Under the pieces are notes generated by a model. The model was not told the DNA's origin. It saw nothing but the letters and a program-made list of their open reading frames with translations, and ran no database searches. A stretch of 20,264 nt of DNA from a virus, in IMG/VR virus record IMGVR_UViG_3300006641_000245, positions 1-20,264 of that record. One strand, written 5' to 3'. This document shows, piece after piece, positions 1,800 to 18,262 of this stretch; the first letter of the stretch is position 1, and every line of letters starts with the position of its first letter. The translations under genes were made by a program, and so were the position numbers.

Positions 1800-2201
1800 A
1801 TGCAACTGACCAAACAGCAGTTTATTGACCGGTTCACCCACCCCGAGTTCACGAGCATCCTGCAAACAGGTAAGACGGATGTTGATATCGAGGGGTGGCT
1901 GTTCCGGTTTAATAACGCCGACAATCCGATTGACACCTACGATCCTCGGACGATTCAGGGTGTGGAGTCTTTCGTTCTCAAAGGATTGTTGACCGAGCAA
2001 CGCGCTCAGGAGATCCTCGGACTCTCGTGGAACGGTTGGCATGTCGGGGAGATGGTGCGAATCCTCCCGCCGTTCGACGTTTCGTTCCCGGATGTGTATC
2101 CGATTCAAGGTTTTGAGCCGGAGTTTTCTACGATTCTCGTAGCGGATACGGGGTTTAACGAGCAGTTTGTGGAGAAGGCCAATGGCAATAACAACGGTTG
2201 A
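1800..2201 (+). CDS. Phage hypothetical protein, structural block
   Basis: The product is 133 residues: an amphipathic N-terminal part (LTKQQFIDRFTHPEFTSIL), a middle stretch (IEGWLFRFNNADNPIDTYDPR), a helical segment (GLLTEQRAQEIL) and a Tyr/Phe/Pro-rich end (LPPFDVSFPDVYPIQGFEPEF). No Cys, no membrane segment, no recognised enzyme motif. It starts 1 nt after the previous stop. Its last 20 nt overlap the start of the next gene, which has its own ribosome site inside this frame. I do not recognise the family; neighbours suggest a virion or assembly role. Confidence 0.65.
   Translation: MQLTKQQFIDRFTHPEFTSILQTGKTDVDIEGWLFRFNNADNPIDTYDPRTIQGVESFVLKGLLTEQRAQEILGLSWNGWHVGEMVRILPPFDVSFPDVYPIQGFEPEFSTILVADTGFNEQFVEKANGNNNG
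2171..2174 (+). promoter_or_regulatory. Shine-Dalgarno GGAG deciding the start at 2182
   Basis: GGAG (within GGAGAAGG) sits 7 nt before ATG 2182. Initiation there yields an N-terminus beginning MAITT, matching the downstream paralogues MAITTY (2994) and MAITS (3803). This supports 2182 over any longer reading. Confidence 0.6.
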
Positions 2202-2991
2202 TGGGGTTATTGCCGGGTTTAAGCCGCCACAATTCATCTGGAAAGAGGCATCGGGCGCTCTTGTCGCCGGTCGCTCTTATACCCCGTTTTATGCCGCCGG
2301 TATTCCTTCAGCCGCCGTTGCTCCGACTCCGGGCATTTCTGGTGCGGCTCTGACTTCCTATGCCGGTCAGATCCCGTTCACAAACCCCAGCGCGGGCCAG
2401 AACACTTACCTTGCACGCTTTGTAGCGTTCCCTACGAACCAAGGCGGCTCAATCACCCTTGCTGATCGTTTGTGGCATAACAGCGGTATTACGATCACTT
2501 CGACCGCCGCTCAGACCGTCAATAGCGTGACTTTCCCGGCGCGGGATAATCTTGGCTCAACGAACGGCGAAGGCGTGTTTTTGGGCGTTGAGGTTTCAAC
2601 AGCGACGGGCGCTGGTACGCCGACGATCACGGTCAGCTACACAAATAGCGATAACACCTCTGGTCGCACCGCAACCAACATTTACGCCACCAGTGCAACA
2701 TCCGCAATCGGCACGTTTTATCCGCTGGGACTGCAATCTGGTGATAAAGGTGTTCGCTCAATTCAGTCGATTACGCTGAGCGCCACTTGGACTAGCGGGA
2801 CAATCCATTTGGTTGCTTACCGTCCTCTGGTAACGATTACTTCTACTGTGGCGGGAACCTGTAATGTTGTCGATGCACTCACCAGCGGGCTGGTGAGAAT
2901 GTACGACAATACGGTGCCATTTTTGATTTTGGTTCCGTCTGCGACTACTTCTACCCTAATAACAGGAACATTAACTGTTACTCAGGGGTAA
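2182..2991 (+). CDS. Tandem paralogous virion protein, copy 1
   Basis: The product is 269 residues, rich in Thr, Ser and Gly with no Lys-rich or membrane part. Landmarks shared in order with the two following genes are: N-terminal MAITT; IPFTNPSAGQNTYLARF; QTVNSVTFPARDNLGS; GEGVFLGVEVS; YTNSDNTSGR; GLQSGDKGVRSIQS; LVAYRPLVTI; MYDNTVPFLIL; and a terminal TVTQG. These define one large beta-rich protein family present three times side by side. This copy is GC-rich (a sampled line, 2341-2400, is about 65%), unlike copy 2. It overlaps the upstream gene by 20 nt. The role is unknown; a capsid decoration or appendage subunit is a reasonable inference from size, composition and context. Confidence 0.8.
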   Translation: MAITTVDGVIAGFKPPQFIWKEASGALVAGRSYTPFYAAGIPSAAVAPTPGISGAALTSYAGQIPFTNPSAGQNTYLARFVAFPTNQGGSITLADRLWHNSGITITSTAAQTVNSVTFPARDNLGSTNGEGVFLGVEVSTATGAGTPTITVSYTNSDNTSGRTATNIYATSATSAIGTFYPLGLQSGDKGVRSIQSITLSATWTSGTIHLVAYRPLVTITSTVAGTCNVVDALTSGLVRMYDNTVPFLILVPSATTSTLITGTLTVTQG

Positions 2992-2993
2992 CC

Positions 2994-3800
2994 GTGGCTA
3001 TTACCACCTATGCTGGGATTTATACAGGGGCTGTCCAGCAGCTGCAATTTTCAAAAATAGTTACCATTGGGTCATCCGCAAGTGATCCAACACTGACATT
3101 TTTCTGGAGCGGAATACCCAGTGCCGGAGGCGCTGGGGCGAGTCTATCTGGTAATACTCGCGATAACACATCATCTGGCGCGATACCGTTTAGAAATGCA
3201 AGTAGCGGCCAGAATAATTATCTATCTCGTTTTGACCACGCATCTTCAGCTCCAAGTACAGGAAAGTCGGTATTTATTGTCGATATTCTTTGGATAACTT
3301 CAGCAGTAAGCCAAGTAACAACAACGCAAACAATTAACTCTGTAACTTTTCCATCAAGGGATATTGACGGCTCTACCGCTGGGCGTGGTGTATATATCGC
3401 CATGTTTCATTCGACAGGCTATGCTTCTTCAAACGCATACACTGCCACAATAACCTATACAAACTCCGCTAATACGGGCAGCAGGGTAGGCACGGTGTCT
3501 CGCACGGGCGGTCTTGCTAATCGTTGGGTACCATTTGGCTTGGCAGAAGGTGATGAAGGCGTCCGGTCCGTACAAGACTTTACTTTTTCTGCCGTCCCCG
3601 GCACCTCGGGTGCAACAGTTTTGCTGGCCTATAGACCAATCGCGCTGCTTTCGTCAATACTTACCACGGGCGGTGTGCCGATTTCTGATACAGCCATGAC
3701 TCTCGCCCTGCCGCAATTGTATGACGGCACCTGTTTGACAATTATCAATATGGCTGGCGGCAATGAGTCATATGGTACGTATACGATAGCTCAGGGGTAG
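2994..3800 (+). CDS. Tandem paralogous virion protein, copy 2 (GTG start, low GC)
   Basis: The product is 268 residues from GTG 2994, two nt after the previous stop; the start gives MAITTYAG, matching the family N-terminus. Shared landmarks are IPFRNASSGQNNYLSRF, QTINSVTFPSRDIDGS, GRGVYIAMF, YTNSANTGSR, GLAEGDEGVRSVQD, LLAYRPIALL, LPQLYDGTCL and a terminal TIAQG. Conservation is strongest in the GQN-YL, RD-GS and GVRS-Q blocks, with diverged loops between. Sampled lines 3241-3360 have about 37-40% GC, far below copy 1, which points to separate acquisition or long independent evolution, not a fresh duplication. No catalytic motif is seen. Presumed virion component. Confidence 0.8.
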   Translation: MAITTYAGIYTGAVQQLQFSKIVTIGSSASDPTLTFFWSGIPSAGGAGASLSGNTRDNTSSGAIPFRNASSGQNNYLSRFDHASSAPSTGKSVFIVDILWITSAVSQVTTTQTINSVTFPSRDIDGSTAGRGVYIAMFHSTGYASSNAYTATITYTNSANTGSRVGTVSRTGGLANRWVPFGLAEGDEGVRSVQDFTFSAVPGTSGATVLLAYRPIALLSSILTTGGVPISDTAMTLALPQLYDGTCLTIINMAGGNESYGTYTIAQG

Positions 3801-3802
3801 TC

Positions 3803-4573
3803 ATGGCTATTACGAGTATAGTCGGCATACAAACAGCGGCGAAACAATCTTTTGTCATTACCGCTACTGGCAATGCAAGTGGCCTTGACAGTCCGCGCAA
3901 TAATTGGACTTCAAACAATCTTGTGCCAGCTAACGTAACTCGTTTCTCGCCGGATAACACGAATGGTTTGCAGTTTAAGAACCCTATTGCTGGGCAGAAC
4001 ACGTATTTATCTGATACCAATATCTATGGCGTCAGTACGTCTCCGTATTATACGCTTATAGTAGATGTTATCTGGGGTGTGGTTGTCACTAACACCACTA
4101 CGCTGCAAACTCTGTCGTCTCCGCTTATGGGTAACCGTGATATCAATGGCACAACCCGTGGAGACGGAGTGTATTTGATACTGGTTAACGGTACGGGTAA
4201 CTTAGGTGGCGGGACTTGTTTTTTGACGGTGACTTATACAAGTTCTGACGGCAACACTGGTCGTATTGGGTTGTCAGGTAATGCTGGCAACTTTCAAGGC
4301 GGCAGGACTACGTTTATCAGCCTTGCTAATGGCGATAAAGGAGTTCAGTCTGTACAGTCTGCCCAATGGTCAGCATTGCCCGGTGGCGGTCTGAATCTAT
4401 ATGCCTATAGGCCGATTGCGATTATTCCGGGGGGAATGGCACGAAGCGACGGGACCGCCGCTGGAGATGCGCTTAATCTGGCACTCCCTCAGATTTACGA
4501 CAACTCCTGCATCCAGTTTTTGTATGGCAACGGGGCGGGCACCCGTGGGCAAATAAGTTTGATTCAGGGTTAA
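3803..4573 (+). CDS. Tandem paralogous virion protein, copy 3
   Basis: The product is 256 residues starting MAITSIVGIQ, 2 nt after copy 2. It retains the family blocks LQFKNPIAGQNTYLSDT, QTLSSPLMGNRDINGT, GDGVYLILVN, YTSSDGNTGR, LANGDKGVQSVQS, LYAYRPIAII, LPQIYDNSCI and a terminal SLIQG. It is closest to copy 2 at the C-terminus (LPQ-YD). It differs in a shorter middle and a Gly/Asn-rich loop (LSGNAGNFQGGR). One sampled line (4081-4140) has about 52% GC, between copies 1 and 2. Probable beta-rich virion protein; receptor or glycan binding would be speculation. Confidence 0.8.
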   Translation: MAITSIVGIQTAAKQSFVITATGNASGLDSPRNNWTSNNLVPANVTRFSPDNTNGLQFKNPIAGQNTYLSDTNIYGVSTSPYYTLIVDVIWGVVVTNTTTLQTLSSPLMGNRDINGTTRGDGVYLILVNGTGNLGGGTCFLTVTYTSSDGNTGRIGLSGNAGNFQGGRTTFISLANGDKGVQSVQSAQWSALPGGGLNLYAYRPIAIIPGGMARSDGTAAGDALNLALPQIYDNSCIQFLYGNGAGTRGQISLIQG

Positions 4574-5511: not shown

Positions 5512-7086
5512 ATGGTCACCGCTGTCCTCCCGCGCTTCTTTGTAGACAAGCAAACTAGTCAACCGCAAGGAAGTCGGGTTATAGACTGGTCAAACCCGAT
5601 AACTTGTGGGTTAATTGGGGCGTTCTTGCCTGAATCGCCAATCAATTTTGTTGATGGCGAGCAAATGTATCAGGATTGGCTTCCGCCAACTCAAAGCGTA
5701 AAAGCGCAATCAGAAGGCAAAGTTCTTAAAAATGGTATCTACACATACCAACCTTCAAGCGTAACTTTCCCCTACGGATATAAGTTTGACCTGACTCAGG
5801 GCGCAGCCCTGCTCGTTGCTTCTCAATCGTCTGCCCAAAACTCAAACATAGGCATTGGTCGTGCCTCCGCATCTGGCACTCAATATTGGGGCATTGGCCT
5901 GCATGGTGGATCTTTCAATGGTGCGTATGGAATTTGGGGGACTTTTAACTTTACTCCCGGCTCTAGTGGAGTAAGCACGTTACAAAAACGAACCGTCATC
6001 ATTAACGCCGATGGATCGACGGCGACTTTGTATATGGACGGAGGGGTGGTAAGCAGCGGCGCTTACACCATGCCTGCTTATGATTCTAGCGTTAGAAATA
6101 GGTGTTTTGCTTTTGGTAGCACCGCTGCGGGCCAAACCTCTAACACCGCCACAATCGAACCCAGCCTCGGGCTTGTTTGGAATAGACCTTTAACCGAGAA
6201 TGAAGTTGCTCTGTTAACAGCAAATCCTTGGCAAGTCTTTCGTAGACCGCAGCGGGCATACACGCCATTATTCGACTCCACCCCCTCCCCCACATCCCGG
6301 ACCTTCTTCGTCCCGCGCAAAAAGGTAATGACCTCGCAGCCGCAGGGACCTGCGGCAGCAATTGATTGGGGAAACCCGATTACGCAAGGCCTCGCGTCTG
6401 CTTATATACCAACTGCGGCTCAGTACCGGTCATTCGACCTCGCTACAAACACACGAGACCTCACCACAAATGCAGATTTTTTGCCCCCGTATAGGCCGGG
6501 GGCCGCAGGGTTTGCGCTTGACTCTACGGATACTAACTACGTTTGGAGTATTCAGTTTGATCCTGTCGCCCTGCGTGGTTATCCAAAAACCGGCTACGCT
6601 GCGGTGACGGTTTTCTCGTTGTTTGAGAGCAGGACCACCAATCAGTTCGGTGTAATCTACGGCGGCGGTCAAGACGGAACTTATTATGGCCGCTTAGTTG
6701 TTAGTAGTGACGCAACGATTGCGTTTATTGCAGCATCTAACAACGCCACGCTCCATCCTAAGTCGCCCCTCGTCGCTGACACGCTTTACGCTGCTACAGG
6801 TATTCAAAGCTTTACCCGGAGTTATAGGGCGCTTTATGTAAACGGACATTTAGCCGAAACCAGAACGGAGAGTATTAACAATCTCAACACAGGTTTTATA
6901 GCTGGATCTATCTATAACGTCCAACTTCGCCGTATCAAACTTTATTGCGGGTACGTCTGGGTTCGTGAGTTGTCCGCAGCAGAAATCAAGTCGCTCTCCG
7001 ACAACCCGTGGCAAATCTTCAAGCAGGATGGGTTGTCTCTTCGGGTTGCTGAAGACGGCAAGGTGTACGCTCCGTTCATGTCATGA
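5512..7086 (+). CDS. Double LamG/concanavalin-like virion protein
   Basis: The product is 524 residues made of two homologous halves. Each half opens with FFV...TSQPQG...IDWxNPIT-GL (residues about 9-35 and 265-297). Each closes with a VW-R-L(T/S)-x-E segment followed by a NPWQ(V/I)F box (residues about 218-240 and 483-500). The middle of each half carries lectin-like beta-strand pairs such as TATLYMDGGVVSSG in half 1 and YRALYVNGHLAETR in half 2. This is the usual layout of LamG/concanavalin A-like jelly rolls in phage adhesins, where the NPWQ box ends the domain. Carbohydrate binding on the virion surface is therefore likely, though the ligand is unknown. Its stop overlaps the next start as ATGA. 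The first half is relatively AT-rich (5641-5700 is about 43% GC). Confidence 0.8.
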   Translation: MVTAVLPRFFVDKQTSQPQGSRVIDWSNPITCGLIGAFLPESPINFVDGEQMYQDWLPPTQSVKAQSEGKVLKNGIYTYQPSSVTFPYGYKFDLTQGAALLVASQSSAQNSNIGIGRASASGTQYWGIGLHGGSFNGAYGIWGTFNFTPGSSGVSTLQKRTVIINADGSTATLYMDGGVVSSGAYTMPAYDSSVRNRCFAFGSTAAGQTSNTATIEPSLGLVWNRPLTENEVALLTANPWQVFRRPQRAYTPLFDSTPSPTSRTFFVPRKKVMTSQPQGPAAAIDWGNPITQGLASAYIPTAAQYRSFDLATNTRDLTTNADFLPPYRPGAAGFALDSTDTNYVWSIQFDPVALRGYPKTGYAAVTVFSLFESRTTNQFGVIYGGGQDGTYYGRLVVSSDATIAFIAASNNATLHPKSPLVADTLYAATGIQSFTRSYRALYVNGHLAETRTESINNLNTGFIAGSIYNVQLRRIKLYCGYVWVRELSAAEIKSLSDNPWQIFKQDGLSLRVAEDGKVYAPFMS

Positions 7087-8114
7087 GCAACAGATTCTTC
7101 AATCCGGCGGTTGGCAAGGCCACAGGGCAAGGCTACGGCGCGTCCCCGCTGGATTCGATCTGGGTCAAACAGACCACAGACATCCTGTATCCGAAGATAC
7201 AGGCAGGAGACGAAGACACCGCTGAACAGACCGTATATACCACTTGGTATCTCGGGCCGCCCTCTGCTGGTGTAACCCTAACCGCTGATGCGGGTACGTT
7301 CTCGATTACTGGTCGGGCAGCGGATCTTCTTCGGTCTCGCCTCCTTTCCGCTGACGCCGGTTCGTATTCGATCAGCGGTCAAGCTGCTGACTTTGCCAAG
7401 ACCGTCGCGCTCTCGGCTGATGCTGGGACGTACACAATCAACGGTCAGGCGGCGGATCTCACCGCCGTTCGTATACTTAGCGCAGACGCTGGTTCGTACC
7501 TTATCTCCGGGCAGGCAGCCACTCTAGCTCGATCACTGTATCTAGACGCGAACTCTGGTTCGTATGCAATCACCGGTGAGGCAGCGACTCTCGATTATGA
7601 GCAGGCGCGTACCATTGATGCCAACGCCGGGGTGTATTCGATCGGCGGTCAAAACGCAGACCTGATCCGCACTCACGTATTCACCGCTGAAGTTGGCTCC
7701 TACAACCTCTCCGGTCAGAACGCTGATCTGGTTGTATCCAAGGTTCTTCTGGCCGATGCTGGTGCGTACAGCATCTCTGGTCAAGCTGCTGATTTGATCG
7801 TAGCCCGGTCGGTAGACGCGCAGTCCGGCACGTACAATATTGGGGGTCAGGCTGCTGACCTGATTGCCTCCAGAATACTGTCCGCAGATGCTGGTAGTTA
7901 TGGTATAAGCGGTCAGGACGCGGTTCTGGCTCACGGGCGCTATTTGCTCGGAGAGTCTGGTTCGTACCTGATCAACGGCCAGCCCGCTACGCTTACTAGC
8001 ATTGTGCTGTTCCCGAATCCTGCTGACGTTCGCGCAGGCGTTGTTTATGGGCCAGATGGGATTTATACTGGGACTCTGATAGTCAGTACGCCCATTTACC
8101 TTTTCGATGACTGA
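7083..8114 (+). CDS. 22-residue-repeat phage fibre-like protein
   Basis: The product is 343 residues in three parts. Residues 1-65 are a unique N-terminus (MSNRFFNPAVGKATGQGYG, then DSIWVKQTTDILYPKIQ), possibly the virion anchor. Residues 66-309 hold eleven near-perfect repeats of the form LSADAGSYSISGQAADL plus a variable pentad; all are 22 residues except the fifth (24). Residues 310-343 carry PADVRAGVVYGPDGIYTGTL, a short Gly-rich C-terminal module that recurs in many phage appendage proteins. Regular repeats with conserved Gly, Tyr and Gln at fixed spacing suggest a beta-solenoid or stacked beta-hairpin shaft. The start codon overlaps the previous stop (ATGA). Function is inferred as a fibre or decoration; no enzyme motif is present. 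Confidence 0.8.
   Translation: MSNRFFNPAVGKATGQGYGASPLDSIWVKQTTDILYPKIQAGDEDTAEQTVYTTWYLGPPSAGVTLTADAGTFSITGRAADLLRSRLLSADAGSYSISGQAADFAKTVALSADAGTYTINGQAADLTAVRILSADAGSYLISGQAATLARSLYLDANSGSYAITGEAATLDYEQARTIDANAGVYSIGGQNADLIRTHVFTAEVGSYNLSGQNADLVVSKVLLADAGAYSISGQAADLIVARSVDAQSGTYNIGGQAADLIASRILSADAGSYGISGQDAVLAHGRYLLGESGSYLINGQPATLTSIVLFPNPADVRAGVVYGPDGIYTGTLIVSTPIYLFDD
7278..8009 (+). repeat. Eleven tandem ~66-bp coding repeats
   Basis: Eleven coding units of 66 bp (the fifth is 72 bp) encode residues 66-309. Invariant or nearly invariant positions are a Gly after the D/E-A/S pair, then an aromatic (Tyr or Phe) two residues on, I or L two further, Gly-(Q/R/E) after that, and A-x-L. Codons differ between units, so the array is old or maintained by protein selection and was not freshly amplified. 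Confidence 0.9.
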
Positions 8115-8372: not shown

Positions 8373-8618
8373 ATGGACCTCAGTATCTGGAACACCGTAC
8401 TGTCGGTGTTGCTTGGGTTGCTTTCGTGGATCTTGAAAGAGAAGTCCACGGAATTAAAGCGCATTGAGATTTTGCTCAACAAGACCCGGGAAGAAGTGGC
8501 TAAAGAGTATGTGACCAAGGTCGAGGTGCATACTGACATTAACCGGGTGCTTGATCGACTAGATCGACTTGAATCCAAACTGGACGCCGTGATTAAAGGT
8601 AGGCAAAATGCCCAGTAG
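8373..8618 (+). CDS. Small membrane-anchored coiled-coil protein
   Basis: The product is 81 residues. Residues 5-21 (IWNTVLSVLLGLLSWIL) form one hydrophobic membrane helix. A charged linker (KEKSTELKRIEILLNKTREE) and a coiled-coil (VLDRLDRLESKLDAVI) follow, with a YVTKVEVHTDINR link. This architecture is common in phage accessory lysis or membrane-regulating proteins (for example holin partners), but the true lysis cassette lies 10 kb downstream. It starts 1 nt after the preceding stop and overlaps the next gene by 11 nt. A role in lysis timing, or in virion or membrane anchoring, is possible; neither is shown. Confidence 0.7.
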   Translation: MDLSIWNTVLSVLLGLLSWILKEKSTELKRIEILLNKTREEVAKEYVTKVEVHTDINRVLDRLDRLESKLDAVIKGRQNAQ

Positions 8619-9048
8619 CAGCTTGCGTCAACATAACTTGATGGCAATGGTGGCTAATGACCCGGCCGCCGCCAAGCGAACCGGCATCCCTCAATCCGTT
8701 GGCGAAGACTTTGTAAAGGCCGACACGGGTCGAAAGTTTGGCAGCAAGTCTCGTCCTGATCTCCAGCGTATCAACAAGCCGAAGACCCTTCATGGCAAAT
8801 CGGCACTATTCAGTGAAGGTGGTTCCATGAAAGAGTCCAAGGCAATGATGAAGAAAGAGATTGGCTTCATGAAAGCCAAAGGCGCTCCCAAGTCCATGAT
8901 CAAGCATGAGATGAAGGAAGCCGGCATGAAGAAGGGTGGCGCTGCCAAGTATGCAGGCGGCGGCTTCGTTCGCTCTGCTGACGGCGTGGCCTCCAAAGGC
9001 AAGACCAAGGCTAAGCAGATCACCATGAAGCGCGGAGGCGCGTGCTGA
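8608..9048 (+). CDS. Basic phage protein with SRPDLQRINKPKT and ADG-GKTK motifs
   Basis: The product is 146 residues with high Lys and Met. It opens with a helix (SLRQHNLMAMVANDPAAAKR), then SRPDLQRINKPKTLHGK (48-64), and a Met/Lys-rich repeated helix segment (MKESKAMMKKEIGFMKAKG, then SMIKHEMKEAGMKKGG). It ends in KYAGGGFVRSADGVASKGKT (114-133) and a Lys-rich tail. The last block recurs in shortened form in the next gene (RADGCAQRGKTKGRMV). Such proteins are widespread in aquatic phage genomes but unnamed. A packaged, DNA-binding or assembly role is inferred from charge only. It overlaps the coiled-coil gene upstream and has its own AAGGTAGG ribosome site. Confidence 0.75.
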   Translation: MPSSSLRQHNLMAMVANDPAAAKRTGIPQSVGEDFVKADTGRKFGSKSRPDLQRINKPKTLHGKSALFSEGGSMKESKAMMKKEIGFMKAKGAPKSMIKHEMKEAGMKKGGAAKYAGGGFVRSADGVASKGKTKAKQITMKRGGAC

Positions 9049-9050
9049 TC

Positions 9051-9356
9051 ATGCCAAAAAATTATCGATCCCCGTCTATAGAAGAGACTCGCAAGCTGGA
9101 AGCATCACGCAAGCTGATGGCTGAAGGCATCGAGGGAGAGAAGGACATCTTTTCTCGCATGATGCCGACCATGGCGAAAGCGGCCCGAGACGACATGCGA
9201 CAGGCCAAGCGCATGCGCGAATCAGTGCCGGAGCGTGCTCGTGAAGGCGAGGCGTATAACGAAGCTGGCTATGCAAAAGGCGGCAAGGTTAGCTCCGCCT
9301 CATCCCGTGCTGATGGTTGCGCTCAGCGTGGCAAGACCAAAGGTCGGATGGTGTAA
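9051..9356 (+). CDS. Small basic phage protein with RADG-GKTK C-terminus
   Basis: The product is 101 residues from ATG 9051 (2 nt after the prior stop). A GTG at 9042 is in frame but gives an unusual VLI opening and lies inside the preceding gene. Residues 8-70 are helical and highly charged (IEETRKLEASRKLMAEGIEG, KAARDDMRQAKRMRESVPER). The C-terminal 30 residues contain YAKGGKVSS followed by RADGCAQRGKTKGRMV, matching the tail of the preceding gene. The two genes may share a terminal signal or partner. No enzyme motif is visible and the function is unknown. Confidence 0.75.
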   Translation: MPKNYRSPSIEETRKLEASRKLMAEGIEGEKDIFSRMMPTMAKAARDDMRQAKRMRESVPERAREGEAYNEAGYAKGGKVSSASSRADGCAQRGKTKGRMV

Positions 9357-9358
9357 TC

Positions 9359-9646
9359 ATGATGGCTTCACGCGGGATGGGGGCCATCAGCCCCTCCAAG
9401 ATGCCCAAGGCGACTCGCAAATCCCGGCGAGACGATACTGATTTCGATCAGTATGCCGAGGGCGGTGAGGTCAAGTCCCGCGTGAATGAGGCAGGCAACT
9501 ACACCAAGCCTGGGATGCGTAAAGCCTTGTTCAACAAGATCAAGGCAAGCGCTACTCAGGGCACCGCCGCGGGACAATGGTCGGCTCGCAAAGCGCAGTT
9601 GCTTGCCAAGCAGTACAAATCCAAGGGCGGTGGATATCGTGAGTAA
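9359..9646 (+). CDS. Basic phage protein with GQWSARKAQLLA domain
   Basis: The product is 95 residues (ATG 9359; the next ATG at 9362 is equally possible). It has an opening MASRGMGAISPSKMPK, a linker with QYAEGGEVKSR, and a compact domain from residue 41: VNEAGNYTKPGMRKALF, IKASATQGTA, GQWSARKAQLLAKQYK and a KGGGYRE end. The WSARKAQ-LAK-YK-GGGY block is found in many phages and some other viruses as an unnamed domain (recall, not a search). The shared YA-x-GG link ties it to the two preceding genes. A ribosome-like GGATGG (9346-9351) lies 7 nt before 9359. Role unknown; very basic. Confidence 0.75.
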   Translation: MMASRGMGAISPSKMPKATRKSRRDDTDFDQYAEGGEVKSRVNEAGNYTKPGMRKALFNKIKASATQGTAAGQWSARKAQLLAKQYKSKGGGYRE

Positions 9647-9800: not shown

Positions 9801-10036
9801 CAATGAAAGCCCCCCAGCAGTCACTTAAAAACTGGACTGCTCAGAAGTGGCGAACCAAGTCTGGTAAGCCATCAAGTCAGACTGGCGAGCGGTATCTGCC
9901 AGAGAATGCGATCAAGTCTCTATCTCCTTCGGAGTACGCTGCAACCACCCGCGCCAAGCGTGCAGGCAAGGCCAAAGGCAAGCAGTTCGTAGCCCAGCCC
10001 AAGACTATTGCCAAAAAGACTGCAAGGTTTAGATAA
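9797..10036 (+). CDS. Small basic phage protein, LKNWTAQKWRTKSGKPS type
   Basis: The product is 79 residues starting in an ATGA overlap (a second ATG at 9803 would give 77). Sequence blocks are QQSLKNWTAQKWRTKSGKPS, then GERYLPENAIKSLSPSEYAA, RAKRAGKAKGKQFVAQPKT and IAKKTARFR. This SL-x-W-T-x-Q-x-W ... GERYLP ... ATTRAKR-GK ... KKTA order is a recurrent phage and giant-virus small basic family, which I remember as near DUF5872 (not searched). It is very rich in Lys and Arg with no Cys. A DNA-binding or virion-internal protein is plausible. Its TAA stop shares one base with the next ATG. Confidence 0.75.
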   Translation: MTMKAPQQSLKNWTAQKWRTKSGKPSSQTGERYLPENAIKSLSPSEYAATTRAKRAGKAKGKQFVAQPKTIAKKTARFR

Positions 10037-10965
10037 TGACTACGACCGGCACCGCTACATTCAACCTCGACATCAACGACCTCATTGAAGAGGCGTTTGA
10101 GCGGTGCGGCCAAGAGCTTCGCACTGGTTATGACTTTCGCACGGCCCGCCGTAGTCTGAACCTGCTGACTATCGAGTGGGCCAATCGCGGCATCAATCTC
10201 TGGACAATTGAGCAGGGCCAGATCGCTCTGTACCCCAACCAGTCCATTTATCCGTTGCCAGTTGAGACGATTGACCTGCTGGATCAGGTGGTTCGCACGG
10301 GTACGGGCACGACGCAGATTGATATCAACATCAACCGCATCTCTGAGTCCACGTACTCTACGATCCCCAACAAGAACGCCTCTGGCCGACCCATTCAGGT
10401 CTGGATTAACCGCCAGTCCGGGGAATCGAACGCAACTGCCGCAACGGTAACCTCAACCGTTGGCGCGAATGACACCATCATCCCGGTGACGAACATTTCG
10501 GCGCTTCCGTCGGCGGGCTTCATCCAGATCGACAGCGAGATCATTGGTTACTCCGCGATCAACGGCAGTAGTCTGGTGTACTGCGCTCGGGGCCAACGCG
10601 GCACAACGGCTGCCTCTCACTCGGGTGGAGCAGCAATTACTCTGCACAATCTGCCCAACATCAACATCTGGCCGATGCCGGATCAAGGATCTTCTGGTAA
10701 CCCGTACTACACGTTTGTGTACTGGCGCATGCGCCGGATGCAAGACGCTGGCACGGGCACAAGAACTCAGGACATCCCATTCCGTTTCATCGAGTGCATG
10801 GTTGCGGGGCTGGCGTACAAGATGGCGATGAAGCTGCCTAACATGGACCCCGGACGAATGGCGGTTTTGAAGGCCGAGTACGACCAGCAGTGGGCACTTG
10901 CCGCCGAAGAAGATCGTGAGAAGGCCAGTGCTAGGTTTGTCCCCCGGTCACTGTACTACGCATAA
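10036..10965 (+). CDS. gp4-like head-tail connector with inserted domain
   Basis: The product is 309 residues. Residues 12-60 (LIEEAFERCGQELRTGYDF, then ARRSLNLLTIEWANRGINLW) are a helical bundle typical of podovirus gp4-like tail-accessory or head-completion proteins. The family continues at residues 62-130 and again at 205-300 (NLPNINIWPMPDQG, YYTFVYWRMRRMQDAG, ECMVAGLAYKMAMKLP, AEYDQQWALAAEEDREKA). Residues about 132-203 form an insertion with FIQIDSEIIGYSAING and RGQRGTTAASHSGGAAI, a small beta module seen in various phage tail proteins. It likely forms a ring below the portal. The exact role is by family resemblance, not shown. It starts in a TAATG overlap with AAGG 8 nt upstream. Confidence 0.75.
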   Translation: MTTTGTATFNLDINDLIEEAFERCGQELRTGYDFRTARRSLNLLTIEWANRGINLWTIEQGQIALYPNQSIYPLPVETIDLLDQVVRTGTGTTQIDININRISESTYSTIPNKNASGRPIQVWINRQSGESNATAATVTSTVGANDTIIPVTNISALPSAGFIQIDSEIIGYSAINGSSLVYCARGQRGTTAASHSGGAAITLHNLPNINIWPMPDQGSSGNPYYTFVYWRMRRMQDAGTGTRTQDIPFRFIECMVAGLAYKMAMKLPNMDPGRMAVLKAEYDQQWALAAEEDREKASARFVPRSLYYA

Positions 10966-11503: not shown

Positions 11504-11769
11504 TGGCTAAGTTCAGCATGAAGGTCAAGGGCAAGGAAATCGGCCCTGCGCCGGTTTATGCGCCTCCGCACAATATGCAGGGCGCTGCTGGTGTTGACAT
11601 CAAAAACTCTGGCTATGATGGCGGCAACCGCTATCGTGCAAATGATGTGAACATGAGCGTTGGCAGCATCAATCGCAACGACTACGCGCAGCCCAAGACT
11701 TCCGGGATCAAGACTCGGGGTAACGGCGCGGCCACCAAGGGCGTTACTGCTCGGGGACCGATGGCGTGA
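11503..11769 (+). CDS. Gly/Asn-rich phage protein with TRGNGAATKG tail
   Basis: The product is 88 residues from ATG 11503 in a TGATG overlap. It has a Lys-rich start (MAKFSMKVKGKEIGPAPVYA), then a Gly/Asn/Asp-rich low-complexity middle (NSGYDGGNRYRANDVN), and a C-terminus SGIKTRGNGAATKGVTARG-PMA. The KTRG-GAATKG-ARGPMA ending occurs at the C-terminus of small proteins in many phages and may be a binding tag. No secondary structure or enzyme motif is evident; much of it is likely disordered. It ends in a GTGA overlap with the adaptor gene, so it is probably coupled to that gene. Confidence 0.7.
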   Translation: MAKFSMKVKGKEIGPAPVYAPPHNMQGAAGVDIKNSGYDGGNRYRANDVNMSVGSINRNDYAQPKTSGIKTRGNGAATKGVTARGPMA

Positions 11770-12461
11770 ACTACAGCCAGCTTTCTGCTGCAATCCAAAG
11801 CTATACCGAGAATCAGTTCCCGGCGACTACGCTCGCCGATGGCTCTACGGTTTCAGCGGATACACAGATTGCTCGCTTCGTTCAGCAGGCCGAGCAACGC
11901 ATCTATAACGCGGTGCAGTTTCCGTCGCTGCGTAAGAATGTTACCGGCACCACGACCATCAACAACAAGTACTTATCTTGTCCGACCGATTTTCTGGCCG
12001 TGTACTCCATGGCCGTGATTGCGGCGGATGGTACTTATGAGTACCTGCTGAATAAAGATGTCAACTACATTCGGCAGGCATATCCGTCTCCTACGGACTA
12101 CGGCAAACCCCGGTTTTACGCTCTGTTTGGGCCGACGGTTACGGGCGCTACGATTACTAACGAGTTGTCGTTCCTGCTTGGCCCCACGCCTGATGTGGCG
12201 TATAGCGTAGAGTTGCATTACTACTATTACCCCGAGTCGATCACTACCGCCAATACGACTTGGCTCGGTGATAACTTTGATTCGGTGCTGCTGTATGGCT
12301 CGCTGGTCGAGGCGTATACTTTCATGAAGGGTGAAGCTGATTTGGTCGCCCTCTATGATGGCAAGTACAAAGAAGCCCTTGCTCTTGCCAAGCGCCTTGG
12401 AGACGGAATGGAGCGTCAGGATGCGTACCGTTCCGGGCAGTACCGTCAGCCGGTGACTTGA
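11766..12461 (+). CDS. SU10-type head-tail adaptor protein (GTG start)
   Basis: The product is 231 residues from GTG 11766. It has an N-terminal helical part (NYSQLSAAIQSYTENQFP, then IARFVQQAEQRIYNAVQFPS), a central beta section (CPTDFLAVYSMAVIAADG, NYIRQAYPSP, RFYALFGPTV, FLLGPTPDVAYSVELHYYY), and C-terminal helices (LLYGSLVEAYTFMKGE, YKEALALAKRLGDG). This is the layout of the adaptor family first defined in phage SU10, which sits between portal and nozzle. Assignment is by pattern, not a search. A role in joining the tail to the head is therefore likely. It follows the connector and zinc-ribbon genes, consistent with a neck cluster. Confidence 0.75.
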   Translation: MNYSQLSAAIQSYTENQFPATTLADGSTVSADTQIARFVQQAEQRIYNAVQFPSLRKNVTGTTTINNKYLSCPTDFLAVYSMAVIAADGTYEYLLNKDVNYIRQAYPSPTDYGKPRFYALFGPTVTGATITNELSFLLGPTPDVAYSVELHYYYYPESITTANTTWLGDNFDSVLLYGSLVEAYTFMKGEADLVALYDGKYKEALALAKRLGDGMERQDAYRSGQYRQPVT

Positions 12462-12462
12462 T

Positions 12463-12894
12463 ATGCCGATTCAGCAGGGCGCGACCAACACGTTCAAAAC
12501 GGGCCTGCCTTCAGGTACGTTTAACTTTTCGTCGGATACCTTCAAGATCGCTTTGTATAGCAGCACGGCGGATCTTGGTCCGACCACTTCCGCGTATACG
12601 ACATCTGGCGAGATTACTGGCTCCGGGTATACTGCCGGAGGCGAAACGCTTACAGTGTCTGTGACCCCGACGACTGGAAATGATCCGTTCAATACGGTGG
12701 CGTATCTGTCGTTTGCCAATGCAACGTGGAGTCCCGCGACGTTTACCGCTCGCGGCGCTCTGATTTACAAGTCCGGTGGGGGTGATCCCACAGTGTGTGT
12801 TCTGGATTTTGGTGGCGACAAGACATGCACTACCTCATTTGAGGTGCAGTTCCCCGCCGCTAACAGCACCAGCGCAATCATCAGGATTGCATAG
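12463..12894 (+). CDS. Phage virion protein, FNFSS/GYTAGGE module (paralogue)
   Basis: The product is 143 residues: NTFKTGLPSGTFNFSSDTFK, IALYSSTADLGP, SGEITGSGYTAGGETLTV, FTARGALIYKSGGGDP and TSFEVQFPAANSTSAIIRIA. Blocks and order match the gene at 1376 (VHNFSSNVFKVYL, EITGGNGYTAGGE, ESFTVKFSGTDPGAIF). The two genes are 11 kb apart in one operon-like block, so they probably derive from an old duplication and serve similar structural slots. It starts 1 nt after the adaptor gene's stop. A fibre or decoration role is an inference. Confidence 0.75.
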   Translation: MPIQQGATNTFKTGLPSGTFNFSSDTFKIALYSSTADLGPTTSAYTTSGEITGSGYTAGGETLTVSVTPTTGNDPFNTVAYLSFANATWSPATFTARGALIYKSGGGDPTVCVLDFGGDKTCTTSFEVQFPAANSTSAIIRIA

Positions 12895-12903
12895 GAGTAG
12901 ATC

Positions 12904-13488
12904 ATGGGCGTCGAAAGAGCCAAAACTTCAGACCTGATTGGCGGCGGACTGGTTGCCAACAGCATGCCGAGCGAATCGCTCAAAGCCACTGGCAAGTACA
13001 TCGTTGAGTGTTTTGATAAAGACGGCAATCCCAAGTGGACTGCCGAGACGCCCAACCTCGTTGTGAACGTCGGGCTTCAGTACATGGCTGGCTCGGCTCT
13101 TGTTGCTACCACTCAGATCACCACTTGGTATGTCGGGCTGTATGGTGCGGGCGCTTCTAACACGCCGGCCGCTACCGATACTATGGCGGCAGGGGGCCAT
13201 AACGGCTGGACTGAAAACACCAACTATTCGGAAGCTACGCGACCGGTCGCAAACTTCGCTGCCGCGACCGCTGCTAACCCGTCGGTTGTTACCAACACCT
13301 CTAATAAGGCGGTGTTTACCATGAATGCCACCACCACGATCGGCGGTGCGTTTTTGGTTAGCAACAACACCAAGGGTGGGACGACCGGTACGCTGTTTTC
13401 GGCTGCTGACTTCCAGTCTCCGGGTGACCGCGCCGTTGTGAACGGCGATATTCTGAACGTCACTTATCAGTTTAGCCTGTCCGCCTAA
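12904..13488 (+). CDS. Phage virion/tail-associated protein, KATGKYIVECFDKDG type
   Basis: The product is 194 residues. After a short N-terminal stretch it reads SLKATGKYIVECFDKDGNPK, then LVVNVGLQYMAGSALV, ITTWYVGLYGAG, ATDTMAAGGHNGWTENTNYS, KAVFTMNATTTIGGAFLVS and NTKGGTTGTLFSAADF. This ordered set is a recurrent tailed-phage protein (K-x-TGK-ECFD-DG, WY-GL, GWTE, GGAFL, KGGTTGTL), usually left as a hypothetical structural or tail protein. It is preceded by AGGAG and starts 9 nt after the previous gene. The WYVGL and GAFL strands loosely resemble those of the 4575 family. No enzyme motif is present. Confidence 0.75.
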   Translation: MGVERAKTSDLIGGGLVANSMPSESLKATGKYIVECFDKDGNPKWTAETPNLVVNVGLQYMAGSALVATTQITTWYVGLYGAGASNTPAATDTMAAGGHNGWTENTNYSEATRPVANFAAATAANPSVVTNTSNKAVFTMNATTTIGGAFLVSNNTKGGTTGTLFSAADFQSPGDRAVVNGDILNVTYQFSLSA

Positions 13489-13498
13489 GGATGGATAA

Positions 13499-16381
13499 GT
13501 GTCCAGTGGCTGGGGTTCCGGCACTTGGGGCCAATCTAACTGGGGTTACTCTGGGTATTCATCCTCAGTAACAGAGTCAGCCACTGGCTCTGATTCCATA
13601 ACGGGATCATCCCTTGCAGGTCTAATCACAGAAGCAGCTACAGGCGCGGAAACTGTAGCCGCTATACGGCAACTAAATCCGGTAGTTGCCGAGTCGGCAT
13701 CCATAGCCGACAGCAATCTTGGTGAGCGCAATTACTTTAGCACTGAGGCCGAGTCCGCCTCCGGTGCGGATTCTATTAGCGCACAGGCCAGATTCTTCGC
13801 TACTGAGGCCGAGACAGCAACCGCCTCGGACGAAATTAGCGTTCGACAGCAGTTCGATAGGTCGGACGTTGAGACCGCGACGATCGCAGACCTTCCGTTT
13901 GCCAGCCAGTCTGTGCAGAGCGCCACGGCTGAAACATCGTCAGTAACTGACACACCCACCAACATAGCGACCGTTTATTCCGCGCAAGCGGAAACGGCCA
14001 GCCTGTCCGACTCTATTTCTTCCGATCGTATTCTCACCGAAGGCGGTTGGGGGTCAGGAACGTGGGGTCAGGGCGCTTGGAGCGGAATTGTCTTTGCCCG
14101 GTCGATCGTAGAGGCGGCGACGGCGGCAGACCAAGTATCTGTCTCGGTTCCCGCAGTTAATGGGCAAGTAGATGAATCCGCCGTAGGCGCAGACTCGGTA
14201 ACTCCGAGACTCACAACTGTTAATGGTTCGGTTGTTGAATCGGCTTCCGTTGCCGACTCGAACGCATCCGTATTTGCGCCTCGCTCTAGTGTTGAAGAGT
14301 CTGCGTCGATTGCCGACTCTGTTTCCTCGGACCGCATTCTTACTGAGGGCGGCTGGGGGTCTGGAGAGTGGGGTCAAGGACCTTGGAACGGCATTGTTTT
14401 CTCCCGGAACATTGTTGAGGCCGCATCTGTTGTTGACGAATACTCGGCATCCATACCGAATGTAAACGGTACGGTTATTGAGGCGGCGTCTGTTGCGGAC
14501 GAGGTAACGCCCAAGCTCACCACTGTTAACGGATCTACAGAAGATTCCGCATTTGTTACTGACGCCAATTCTGCGATTGGCACGTTTAACCATTCCGTGG
14601 TCGAAGCGGCATTAGTTGCTGATTCGATTGATTCGTCTATTACCTACACAGAAGGCGGATGGGGTTCTGGTGCGTGGGGCCAAGGGCCTTGGAACGGAAT
14701 CGTATTTAACAGGAGTATCGCGGAATCTGGGTCGGTTGCTGATTCGATCTCCGCCGTTCTACCTCTGGTCAACGGGATCATTGAGGACGCGGCGGCCGCT
14801 TCTGATTCGGTCTCTGCCACGCTTCCGACGGTCAATGGGCTGATCGAGGAGGGCGCGACTGGCGCTGACGTTATATTCGCCGCTCGGGCAAACGACGCAG
14901 AAAGCCTGATCGCCGAAACCGCAACCGGGACTGATGAGCCGTCAGCCACCATTACGCTAACTGAGGGCGGATGGGGTTCCGGCGAGTGGGGTCAGGGTGC
15001 GTGGAGCGGGATTGTCTTTAGTAGGACTATCGCTGAAAGCGCGACTGCTACCGACGAAGTTATCCCCCGGCTGGCTTTGGTTAACGGGATTATTGAAGAG
15101 CCTGCGACGGCCACCGATGCCCCCAGTGCGACCCTGCCGCTGTCATTCAGTGTTGCTGATGAAGTTGCCACCGCGACGGACAGCGTTACCCCCGAACTGC
15201 CGGTCGTTAATGGGTTGGCCGATGAGCCGACTCAAGCCACAGACGAGCCCTCGGCAACTATCACTCTGACTGAGGGCGGATGGGGATCTGGGGAATGGGG
15301 TCAGGGTCCGTGGAATGGGATCGTTTTTGCCCGGTCGATTGGCGAAACAGCTACCGCTACGGACGAAGTTACTCCCAAGCTGGTGCTTGTTAACGGGATT
15401 ATTGAAGAACCCGCAACTGCAACGGACGAAGTTTCAGCGGCCCTGCCGGTGTCTTTCAATGTGGCCCCGGACTCGGCCATTGCGTCTGACTCAATTAGCA
15501 CTGAGTTCCCGGTTCAGAACGCTACCGCCCCTGAGCCAGCCCTTGCGGTAGATACTCCGTCGCTTCAGGTTATCTATACCGAGGGTGGCTGGGGATCGGG
15601 AACTTGGGGTCAAGGGCCATGGAACGGGGTGGTGTTTGCCCGCTCCATAGAAGAGGCCACCTCAGTTGCCGACGAAGCTATCGGTACGCCTGCATATCCT
15701 CGCTCGATCGAGGAGGCGCTTAATGCTTCGGAGATCGTGTCCGCTCAAGTTGTATTCGCGGTTCTTATCTCTGAAGGCGTTGCGATAGCCGACTCCGTAC
15801 TGGGGGCTCAGTATTACGAATCGGATGTTCACGAAGATGTTACTGGCGCGGACTTCGTTCTTGGTGGTCGTGCTTATTTCCGGGAAACTGAAAACGCTGT
15901 TTCTGTATCGGATCTGCTTGAGGGCGATGCGCGGCTTGTTCAGGTTATCCAAGAAGCTGCGACTGCATCTGATGCTGTATCTAGCATCGTTACGCAACTC
16001 TGGTACAACATTGAAGACGGTCAAGAGCCTGATTGGCAGACCACAAATAATGAACAAACGGGGTCTTGGGTAACAGTTGATGACAATCAGTCTGCACAGT
16101 GGCAGAATGCTGGTACGTCGCAAACCGCCGATTGGGTTGCGGTTGATGTTACTCAGGCTGTAAGCTGGCAAAATGTTGGCACATCACAAACGGCCACTTG
16201 GTCAGAAGTCAGTGACTCGCAGGCTGCGGGCTGGCAATCTATCCCGACTGAGCAGGCTGGAAGCTGGCCTACCATCGAAACCGCGCAAGATGTAAATTGG
16301 CAAGGAGTTGCTACCAATCAGTCACCAGACTGGGACGATATTGATAGCGCTCAAGATTTTGACGAACCAGTAATTGTCTAG
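13499..16381 (+). CDS. 960-residue repeat virion protein: GW boxes, AD-repeats, W-Q ladder
   Basis: The product is 960 residues from GTG 13499 (AAGGATGG upstream). Regions: a variant Gly-Trp box at residues 4-16 (GWGSGTWGQSNW); then a long array of degenerate E-S/T-A-x3-AD units; then five consecutive super-repeats of 102-104 residues, each led by a GGWGSGxWGQGxW(S/N)G box (14042, 14348, 14654, 14966, 15275), with a sixth box at 15584. Each super-repeat carries about four AD units with VNG links. The last ~110 residues hold ten strict 11-residue W-x6-Q units. It has no Cys, no membrane helix and is acidic (Glu/Asp-rich). Between virion and tail-fibre genes, it is probably a long fibre or tether. 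The family is unknown to me. Confidence 0.75.
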   Translation: MSSGWGSGTWGQSNWGYSGYSSSVTESATGSDSITGSSLAGLITEAATGAETVAAIRQLNPVVAESASIADSNLGERNYFSTEAESASGADSISAQARFFATEAETATASDEISVRQQFDRSDVETATIADLPFASQSVQSATAETSSVTDTPTNIATVYSAQAETASLSDSISSDRILTEGGWGSGTWGQGAWSGIVFARSIVEAATAADQVSVSVPAVNGQVDESAVGADSVTPRLTTVNGSVVESASVADSNASVFAPRSSVEESASIADSVSSDRILTEGGWGSGEWGQGPWNGIVFSRNIVEAASVVDEYSASIPNVNGTVIEAASVADEVTPKLTTVNGSTEDSAFVTDANSAIGTFNHSVVEAALVADSIDSSITYTEGGWGSGAWGQGPWNGIVFNRSIAESGSVADSISAVLPLVNGIIEDAAAASDSVSATLPTVNGLIEEGATGADVIFAARANDAESLIAETATGTDEPSATITLTEGGWGSGEWGQGAWSGIVFSRTIAESATATDEVIPRLALVNGIIEEPATATDAPSATLPLSFSVADEVATATDSVTPELPVVNGLADEPTQATDEPSATITLTEGGWGSGEWGQGPWNGIVFARSIGETATATDEVTPKLVLVNGIIEEPATATDEVSAALPVSFNVAPDSAIASDSISTEFPVQNATAPEPALAVDTPSLQVIYTEGGWGSGTWGQGPWNGVVFARSIEEATSVADEAIGTPAYPRSIEEALNASEIVSAQVVFAVLISEGVAIADSVLGAQYYESDVHEDVTGADFVLGGRAYFRETENAVSVSDLLEGDARLVQVIQEAATASDAVSSIVTQLWYNIEDGQEPDWQTTNNEQTGSWVTVDDNQSAQWQNAGTSQTADWVAVDVTQAVSWQNVGTSQTATWSEVSDSQAAGWQSIPTEQAGSWPTIETAQDVNWQGVATNQSPDWDDIDSAQDFDEPVIV
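13693..13711 (+). other. Small inverted repeat inside the AD-repeat coding region
   Basis: GTCGGC at 13693-13698 and GCCGAC at 13706-13711 pair over 6 bp with a 7-nt loop. Similar arms recur in this gene, for example 13751-13773 and 14296-14320. They come from the ESA...ADS protein motif, whose codons are partly complementary. Regulatory meaning is unproven. Confidence 0.4.
14042..15583 (+). repeat. Five ~103-residue super-repeats headed by Gly-Trp boxes
   Basis: Starts of the Gly-Trp boxes (14042, 14348, 14654, 14966, 15275, 15584) are 306, 306, 312, 309 and 309 nt apart. Each unit has the box, then about four E-x-A-x3-AD segments. Synonymous codons vary between units. The units are coding and stay in frame; no mobile-element features are present. 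Confidence 0.85.
16034..16363 (+). repeat. Ten-unit 11-residue W-x6-Q ladder
   Basis: Tryptophan codons lie every 33 nt from 16034 to 16331, ten in all. In every unit a Gln occupies W+7 with no exception. Most units read W-x5-(S/T/N/E/A)-Q-(S/T/A/D)-x-x. The spacing is exactly 11 residues throughout. Confidence 0.9.
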
Positions 16382-16390
16382 GAGCCGTTC

Positions 16391-18262
16391 ATGGCTGTTA
16401 CGTATACCTCTCTCCTTGGCCTTGCAAAACCCGTTACAGGTACGGAGGCGGGTACGTGGGGCGATGTGGTCAATGATTACTTGACCACCTATCTTGATGC
16501 AGCGGTTGCCGGTGCCCAGACAATCAGCGGCACTCAGACGGCGGTTACTTTGACGGTGGCAAACGGCACGGCGCTAGTTCAGGCCGCTGCTACATCCGCA
16601 GGTTCGTCGCAGTATCAGATCATCAACTGCACTGGAAGCCCGGCGTCTACTCTGGTAATCACTGCGCCTGCTTCCAGTAAGGTGTATCTGGTTATCAACG
16701 CCACCGCCACCAACCAGTCGGTTACGGTTCGGGGTGCAGGCCCAACAACCGGTATTACGATCCCCGCGCTTACCCGGTCGCTGGTTGCATGGAACGGCTC
16801 GGACTACATCCTGATCGCCTCCAACCGTATCACCGACCTGACGGGAACTTTGGCTACTGGTAACGGCGGTACGGGTCTGACGACTTTTACTGCGGCCAAC
16901 AACGCCATTTACTCCACCTCTTCTTCGGCGCTGACCGCCGGTACACTGCCTGTGGCAGCGGGGGGCACAGGAGCTACGACTCTGACCGGCGTGGTCAAGG
17001 CCAGCGGAACCTCGGCGTTCACCGCCAGCAACGTCAGCCTTTCCTCGGAAGTTACTGGAACCCTCCCGGTCGGCAACGGCGGCACGGGTGCCACGACTCT
17101 CACCGCCAACAACGTCATTCTCGGCAATGGCACTTCGGCTGTTCAGGTGGTTGCCCCCGGCACTTCGGGTAACGTGCTGACCAGTAACGGTACGACTTGG
17201 GTTAGCTCATCCGCAGCGCCCAGCCCGAATAAAATCATCAACGGGTCGATGCAGATAGCACAACGCGGAACTACGTTTACAAGCGTTGCTAATCTAGCGT
17301 ATACATTGGATAGATGGTTTTATGGGTCTGCCAGCACAACAGGCGTTCTGGACATCACAAGGAATACAGCAGATTACCCGAGCAATCAGGGATTTTTGAG
17401 CAGCTTACGCGCCACCGTTACGACCGCTGATTCAGCCGTTGCCGCTGGTGATGTGGCTAGAATTGTTCAGAGTATCGAGGGGGTCAGCATTACTGATCTA
17501 ATCAATAGAACCTTCACTCTGTCTTTCTGGGTACGATCTGCTAAAACTGGCACGCATTGCGTCAGTTTTACTGGCCTTAGTGCCGCAGCAGCATTTAATA
17601 GTTATGTTGCCGAGTATACGGTTTCCGCCGCCAACACTTGGGAGCAAAAGACCATTACGGTAACCGATGGCTTGCCTAGCTCTTTTGCTTGGCGCACTGA
17701 CATTGGTGTTGCCGGGATGTCCGTGAACTTTACTCTTATGGCCGGAAGCTCATCGCAAGCAACGGTCAATACGTGGACAACTGGGTCACCATCAAGGTAT
17801 GTCACTTCTGGCGGATCTGGAACGAACTTACTCGATACCGTTGGGAACATTTTCGCCATTACGGGCGTGCAGCTTTCCGTCGGCTCTACGGCATCGTTTG
17901 AGTTTTTACCTTTCGGCGAGATATTGTCGCAGTGCCAGCGGTATTACTCTAAGAGCTATAGCTATGATGTGAATCCTGCCACTGTAACCAGTGGCGGTCA
18001 GATGCGTATACCGGTCGCGTATTCACTCGGCTTTGGTGCTTTTAACATAGACCTCCCTGTGGAAAGGTGCTTTGTACCTAGCATTACAGTTTATTCTCCG
18101 GCAACCGGAGCCTCAGGCGTAGTGCGTAGCGTAGGTTCTGGTACAGATGTTGCAGTTAGTGGCACTAATACTGGCACTCGTATATTGAATATCTTTGTAT
18201 CCTCTGGGATGCAAAACGATGACTTTGCATTAGCCCATTATGTAGCTTCTTCGGAGATTTGA
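16391..18262 (+). CDS. Phage tail fibre protein
   Basis: The product is 623 residues. Residues 1-150 are a beta-rich N-terminal part (GLAKPVTGTEAGTWGDVVND, then YQIINCTGSPASTLVITAPA). About residues 152-235 carry three tail-fibre repeats (TGTLATGNGGTGLTTF, AGTLPVAAGGTGATTLTG, TGTLPVGNGGTGATTLTA). From residue ~281 a C-terminal adhesin half begins at NKIINGSMQIAQRGTTF and contains YTLDRWFYG, FTLSFWVRSAKTG and ITGVQLSVGSTASFEFLPFG before CQRYYSKSY; a terminal region of about 100 residues follows. This is a standard phage fibre ending and a probable host-receptor binder. GC falls from about 62-65% to 43-47% at the stem/head junction. GGAG at 16381-16384 precedes the ATG. Confidence 0.85.
   Translation: MAVTYTSLLGLAKPVTGTEAGTWGDVVNDYLTTYLDAAVAGAQTISGTQTAVTLTVANGTALVQAAATSAGSSQYQIINCTGSPASTLVITAPASSKVYLVINATATNQSVTVRGAGPTTGITIPALTRSLVAWNGSDYILIASNRITDLTGTLATGNGGTGLTTFTAANNAIYSTSSSALTAGTLPVAAGGTGATTLTGVVKASGTSAFTASNVSLSSEVTGTLPVGNGGTGATTLTANNVILGNGTSAVQVVAPGTSGNVLTSNGTTWVSSSAAPSPNKIINGSMQIAQRGTTFTSVANLAYTLDRWFYGSASTTGVLDITRNTADYPSNQGFLSSLRATVTTADSAVAAGDVARIVQSIEGVSITDLINRTFTLSFWVRSAKTGTHCVSFTGLSAAAAFNSYVAEYTVSAANTWEQKTITVTDGLPSSFAWRTDIGVAGMSVNFTLMAGSSSQATVNTWTTGSPSRYVTSGGSGTNLLDTVGNIFAITGVQLSVGSTASFEFLPFGEILSQCQRYYSKSYSYDVNPATVTSGGQMRIPVAYSLGFGAFNIDLPVERCFVPSITVYSPATGASGVVRSVGSGTDVAVSGTNTGTRILNIFVSSGMQNDDFALAHYVASSEI
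18253..18256 (+). promoter_or_regulatory. Shine-Dalgarno GGAG deciding the start at 18265
   Basis: GGAG lies 8 nt before GTG 18265 but only 2 nt before the alternative TTG 18259, which would overlap the tail fibre stop. Spacing and the family-like MYQLT opening favour 18265. Confidence 0.45.

Follow-up and report, generated by a model that had tools for sequence, protein, structure and literature searches.

Trp ladders at the C-terminus of a widespread phage tail-module protein are counted, with rare exceptions, in divisors of twelve

The closest described systems are found in phage SU10. The SU10 adaptor is a dodecamer in which neighbouring subunits take alternating conformations (PMC9509320), and the short-fibre dock loop of its nozzle protein gp17 carries Trp839, Trp847 and Trp857, which form a quasi-threefold star with one Trp for each fibre chain (PMC9509320). 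The dock loop resembles the Trp ladder described here in being a linear segment of spaced Trp residues; in the dock loop each of these packs against a single chain of an oligomer (PMC9509320). It differs in having three Trp at spacings of 8 and 10 inside a beta-propeller protein, whereas the ladder has 2 to 12 units at a spacing of 11, with 2 and 4 as the commonest counts, and is located outside any nozzle beta-propeller, at the very end of a distinct repeat protein that belongs to no Pfam family. The adaptor family (PF24175), which builds a twelve-subunit ring in SU10, is also encoded upstream in nearly all ladder loci, but the SU10 adaptor binds six trimeric fibres through dock loops of its own and the paper describes no ladder protein (PMC9509320). 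Choline-binding Trp repeats, RTX repeats and the solenoids of insect antifreeze proteins resemble the ladder in that one or two types of residue recur at regular intervals, but they have other periods and no Pfam match connects them to it.

The window, i.e. the whole stretch of 20,264 nucleotides that was analysed, is a virus record from IMG/VR (IMGVR_UViG_3300006641_000245). On its plus strand (13499-16381) it encodes a protein of 960 residues with a GTG start, belonging to no Pfam or PHROG family, whose end is formed by the ladder. Direct translation of positions 16001-16363 (plus strand) gives 11 consecutive units of 11 residues each (residues 835-955), with Trp at position 1 and Gln at position 8 without exception. 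An earlier note on this DNA had recognized the Trp/Gln pair, its invariance and the constant spacing, but it counted ten units, missing the first one that begins at 16001, and it overlooked both a third conserved position, Val or Ile at position 4 (9 of the 11 units), and the fact that units of two types, WQ.. and WV.., take turns: in the window ladder, units two steps apart are more alike (identity 0.40 at lag 2) than direct neighbours (0.28 at lag 1). The ladder is followed by the residues EPVIV (16364-16378, plus strand), a decayed twelfth slot where E956 has taken the place of Trp and Ile is kept at position 4, and the same remnant is retained by near relatives.

When the residues of the protein tail were shuffled 20,000 times no ladder of more than 2 units arose, and a DNA pattern encoding (W-x2-[IV]-x3-Q-x3)x3 followed by W matched four times in the window, compared with no match in 100 dinucleotide shuffles. 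Neighbouring units have a mean identity of only 45% in DNA and 28% in protein, showing that they are not recent DNA repeats. The Gln codons differ among the units, and comparison of the ladder with that of relative L005 gave a dN of 0.174 and a dS of 0.714, which indicates that purifying selection acts on the ladder. Since Trp, Gln and the spacing also persist in diverged families, the earlier proposal that selection on the protein maintains a unit coded by varied codons is borne out.

Upstream from the ladder the protein consists of beta-type repeats of approximately 20 residues with a super-period of 102 residues. Its N-terminus carries a Trp-Gly block, GWGSGTWGQSNWG (13505-13549, plus strand; read from the translation), with three Trp at a spacing of 5, and six further blocks of the form GGWGSGxWGQxxWxG lie on the same strand within 14042-15628 (starts at 14042, 14348, 14654, 14966, 15275 and 15584), so that 13505-15628 holds seven blocks in all with three Trp each. 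Near relatives with twelve units have 5-8 such blocks, and most short-ladder proteins have one or none. A 343-residue protein encoded at 7083-8114 has repeats of approximately 20 residues (LSADAGTYTINGQAADL) in a style like that of the N-terminal repeats of the ladder protein.

A Pfam search with the window protein gave nothing above the cut-off and only sub-threshold matches, e.g. PF12815 at 20 bits against a required 25.4; matches to Pfam CTD (Spt5) were discounted as lying below the cut-off. PHROG profiles gave no match to the window protein at an E value of 0.1, and for eight relatives they gave partial or weak matches, two good ones falling outside the ladder. PDB searches found no sequence relative of the ladder, and a literature search of open-licence papers found no description of it. 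Two further matches were set aside: one to Zymomonas plasmid pZM36 is a lysine-rich helical repeat (WVKEKVRQALN) unrelated to the ladder, and one to Natrialba phage PhiCh1 covers low-complexity repeats outside the ladder.

Relatives were collected by a protein search and by scanning IMG/VR with DNA patterns. The protein search gave seven, three of them in a near family at 74% identity and the rest at 35-39% or as a partial copy. The DNA pattern for three complete units and a further Trp matched at least 120 stretches in IMG/VR, and the pattern scans together produced at least about 300 distinct ladders. In nearly all of the matches listed, the ladder closes a beta-repeat protein at its very C-terminus, and the stop usually follows 5-8 residues after the last Trp. 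The N-terminus usually has either a Trp-Gly block or an F-rich start related to it, followed by repeats of 20 or 22 residues. Families that are about one-third identical at the free positions still keep Trp, Gln and the 11-residue spacing. In the wider family Q8 is dispensable: it is often replaced by TGSN-like letters, and Trp by Tyr or Phe, and the 11-residue step is mostly unchanged even in such members.

Cultured phages with a ladder were found in this analysis only in Pelagibacter phages HTVC027P and HTVC023P, whose gp68 proteins, annotated as hypothetical, have two and three units, respectively, with Gly or other letters in place of Q8, and whose gene order is the same as in the window. 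Phages of the HTVC023P type have been described as Podoviridae (PMC9599517). A ladder of four units is present in phage DSL-LC04, which is a metagenome-assembled phage (PMC10611076).

The main result of our analysis concerns the number of units per ladder, counted with the final short unit included. Four scans, which differed in their demands, gave 296 distinct ladders among the matches listed: 35 with 2 units (a sample picked by a particular ending), 56 with 3, 130 with 4, 45 with 6, 29 with 12 and a single one with 10, and none of these 296 sampled ladders had 5, 7, 8, 9 or 11 units. Leaving out one, twelve has no divisors other than 2, 3, 4, 6 and 12. Counts were hand-curated for four relatives: L127, counted as six, has a one-residue deletion within the ladder; L024 is interrupted by an insertion, with ten units before it and two after; and L236 and L246 share the decayed twelfth slot with the window family. 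The scan for at least 4 units listed 81 fours, 32 sixes and zero fives, where a smooth distribution predicts about 51 fives, and all 24 distinct ladders listed in the scan for at least 8 units have twelve. A scan for at least 5 W-units, run as a prospective check after the rule had been drawn, listed 65 new ladders, of which 63 were sixes (including L500, where an extra upstream Tyr was taken as chance), one was a twelve and one was an unrelated low-complexity protein (L542).

An independent sample came from a scan blind to the ladder, in which the downstream fibre was sought by its N-terminal motif. Hand reading of the 107 loci with readable upstream genes gave 2 units in 40, 3 in 17, 4 in 31, 6 in 6, 11 in one, 12 in one and no ladder in 11; spacings of 10, 12, 13 and 15 were accepted in a few members and chance upstream aromatics were dropped. 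This sample contains no five-unit ladder, though Tyr or Phe often stands for Trp. Close relatives differ by jumps between allowed counts (4/6, 2/4, 2/3 and 3/4), and L477 reaches four as two units, an insertion and two units. The exceptions are L181 with 10 units and L406 with 11, so that the quantisation of unit count to divisors of twelve is strong but not absolute. L181 carries near-identical 66-base repeats, and here an assembler may have collapsed copies.

The ladder gene sits in a conserved operon with the order SU10-type adaptor, phrog_644, ladder protein and tail fibre with a GTWG N-terminal domain. In the window, all on the plus strand, these are the adaptor at 11766-12461 (PF24175, E value 8.6e-24), which is our favoured dodecameric partner, a phrog_644-like protein at 12463-12894, a near-constant upstream companion of ladder genes, and the fibre at 16391-18262, whose N-terminal domain (approximately 16391-16840) has the motif TGTEAGTWGDVVN. 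A phrog_8123-like protein at 12904-13488, present in a minority of relatives, lies directly 5' of the ladder gene. Among loci with at least 2.5 kb upstream, an adaptor relative was found in 173 of 183 and phrog_644 in 174 of 183; among those with at least 1.5 kb downstream the fibre follows the ladder gene in 201 of 208. The PF24175 adaptor in the same operon as the ladder places it in a tail module of the short-tailed phage type. In Roseobacter phages CRP-901 and CRP-902 and Planktothrix phage Pag-Yong1 the fibre N-terminal domain comes right after phrog_644 or the adaptor, without a ladder protein, and since some phages thus have the fibre but lack the ladder protein, the latter looks like an optional layer between ring and fibre. 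PDB profile searches with the fibre and phrog_644 gave nothing convincing, the phrog_644 search reaching one chain labelled 'structural protein' at an E value of 0.028.

How could a divisor rule arise? A linear spacer would not forbid 5 or 8 units, and the simplest reading is therefore that units per chain multiplied by chains per virion equals twelve. We lean slightly towards the view that motifs per chain are limited to divisors of twelve because motifs and chains together must fill twelve positions on a ring. On this reading short-tailed phages would have an accessory tail protein that docks by its C-terminal ladder, each unit (aromatic-x-x-[IV]-x3-Q-x3) would act as a single short motif for binding, and a step of 11 residues would take the chain from one ring subunit to its neighbour, the ring most probably being the dodecameric adaptor encoded upstream. 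Twelve sites could be filled by 2 units on each of six chains, 3 on four, 4 on three, 6 on two, or 12 on one, and the beta-repeats at the N-terminus would stand out from the ring, with the GTWG fibre encoded next attaching nearby. What we infer here is that the units bind a partner, that this partner is an assembly of twelve subunits and specifically the adaptor, and that a virion has fewer chains the more units each chain carries. We give this docking model, in which every unit binds a single subunit of a twelve-membered tail ring, most probably that of the adaptor, about an even chance of being right, more than any of its rivals.

By simple arithmetic, 11 extended residues would reach approximately 36 Å at most, which equals the neighbour step in a twelve-fold ring of radius up to approximately 70 Å. 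The presence of the adaptor family in the same operon counts for docking, and the spaced Trp residues of the SU10 nozzle, each gripping one subunit of an oligomer, may serve as a precedent. Identity at lag 2 exceeds that at lags 1 and 3 in 27 of 37 six-unit families (p 1.6e-4) and in 10 of 13 twelve-unit families (p 0.005), and by analogy we count this two-type alternation, which seems to parallel the alternating conformations of the SU10 adaptor, in favour of docking; it could also stem from 22-residue duplications. Several points speak against docking on the ring. The four-chain arrangement needed for the common 3-unit form is unusual in a tail of 6- or 12-fold symmetry, strict alternation of two types cannot be continued around a ring of 3-unit chains, the co-occurrence with the adaptor may mirror operon order only, and L181, L406 and the 11 Trp of the window family itself are exceptions.

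The divisor rule would be predicted equally well if the twelve units formed a closed ring of their own, barrel- or propeller-like, from 1, 2, 3, 4 or 6 chains and without a twelve-fold partner, and packing is suggested by positions 1 and 4, with their strong aromatic and hydrophobic character. AlphaFold2, run as a single chain with a shallow alignment on the window ladder and 25 twelve-unit relatives, neither folded nor closed the ladder (mean pLDDT 34.8, pTM 0.14), which is weak evidence against closure, since a ladder of twelve units would be expected to close by itself. In a single-chain model of a full-length 4-unit relative the 22-residue repeats form regular beta structure of moderate quality (pLDDT approximately 55-68) while the ladder, the weak part of the model, has no strands and a pLDDT of 38-47, again at low confidence and from a shallow alignment; Foldseek with the model of L107 (mean pLDDT 53.6) gave no match at an E value of 0.001. 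The low pLDDT of the ladder is to be read as a failure of the models to predict it and is no proof of disorder. Insertions between units, as in L024 and L477, fit less easily into a closed ring, and we consider such a ring unlikely. The free-standing monomeric solenoid with a Trp face and a Gln ladder, put forward in the earlier note, was lowered for the same want of a confident ladder fold, and the note's other suggestion, a tandem binding tail, is the best match, given a unit count that is quantised and that insertions elsewhere leave unchanged.

Such a tail might grip the fibre instead of the ring, as a multi-site version of the SU10 dock loop where each unit holds one chain of a trimeric fibre and twelve units hold four fibres. 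The SU10 star on three fibre chains (PMC9509320) and the fibre with its conserved N-terminal domain adjoining the ladder gene argue for it, but counts of 2 and 4 cannot be divided by three and would leave a star shared between chains, which lowered the model of three units for each trimeric fibre, and CRP-901, CRP-902 and Pag-Yong1 have the fibre domain without a ladder protein; we regard this as quite improbable. It is less probable still that the counts reflect history only, through doubling and tripling of small ladders whose tail is a spacer or a generic sticky end. The allowed counts are indeed products of small duplications, and near-identical 22-residue repeats in L181 and L241 point to recent duplication. 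Doubling, however, predicts 8 (2-4-8), which is absent among the 24 listed ladders of at least 8 units, and gain of single units predicts 5 and 7, which are absent among the ladders listed; the purifying selection on the ladder and the constancy of counts despite insertions also speak against history alone.

If docking on a twelve-fold ring is true, the ladder would be a rare case where a gene spells out viral quaternary symmetry in its number of motifs, with a stoichiometry legible from the gene alone and hundreds of natural variants with 2, 3, 4, 6 and 12 units. It would also explain how differing oligomeric states fit one twelve-fold ring, a symmetry adaptation general to tailed phages. The analysis further puts a name to an unannotated tail component that is widespread in aquatic phages, cultured SAR11 phages included, and gives a means to find it.

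Other parts of the window deserve mention. A second, weaker SU10_adaptor-like protein (PF24175, E value 1.2e-6) is encoded on the plus strand at 10036-10965; it contains an inserted segment that matches tail fibre, baseplate and virion structural PHROGs, and the family of this protein was found in 187 ladder loci. The phrog_644-like protein is present in two copies (1376-1798 and 12463-12894) that lie at opposite ends of the module and can be aligned over their length. Three successive proteins of 256-274 residues at 2167-4573 resemble diverged paralogues, and the protein at 5512-7086 is built from two halves that resemble each other and both end in ..NPWQxF.., which probably represent a carbohydrate-binding-like domain in duplicate. 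Small proteins rich in Lys and Gly, with motifs like AKYAGGGFV, are encoded one after another at 8608-9646, between structural genes.
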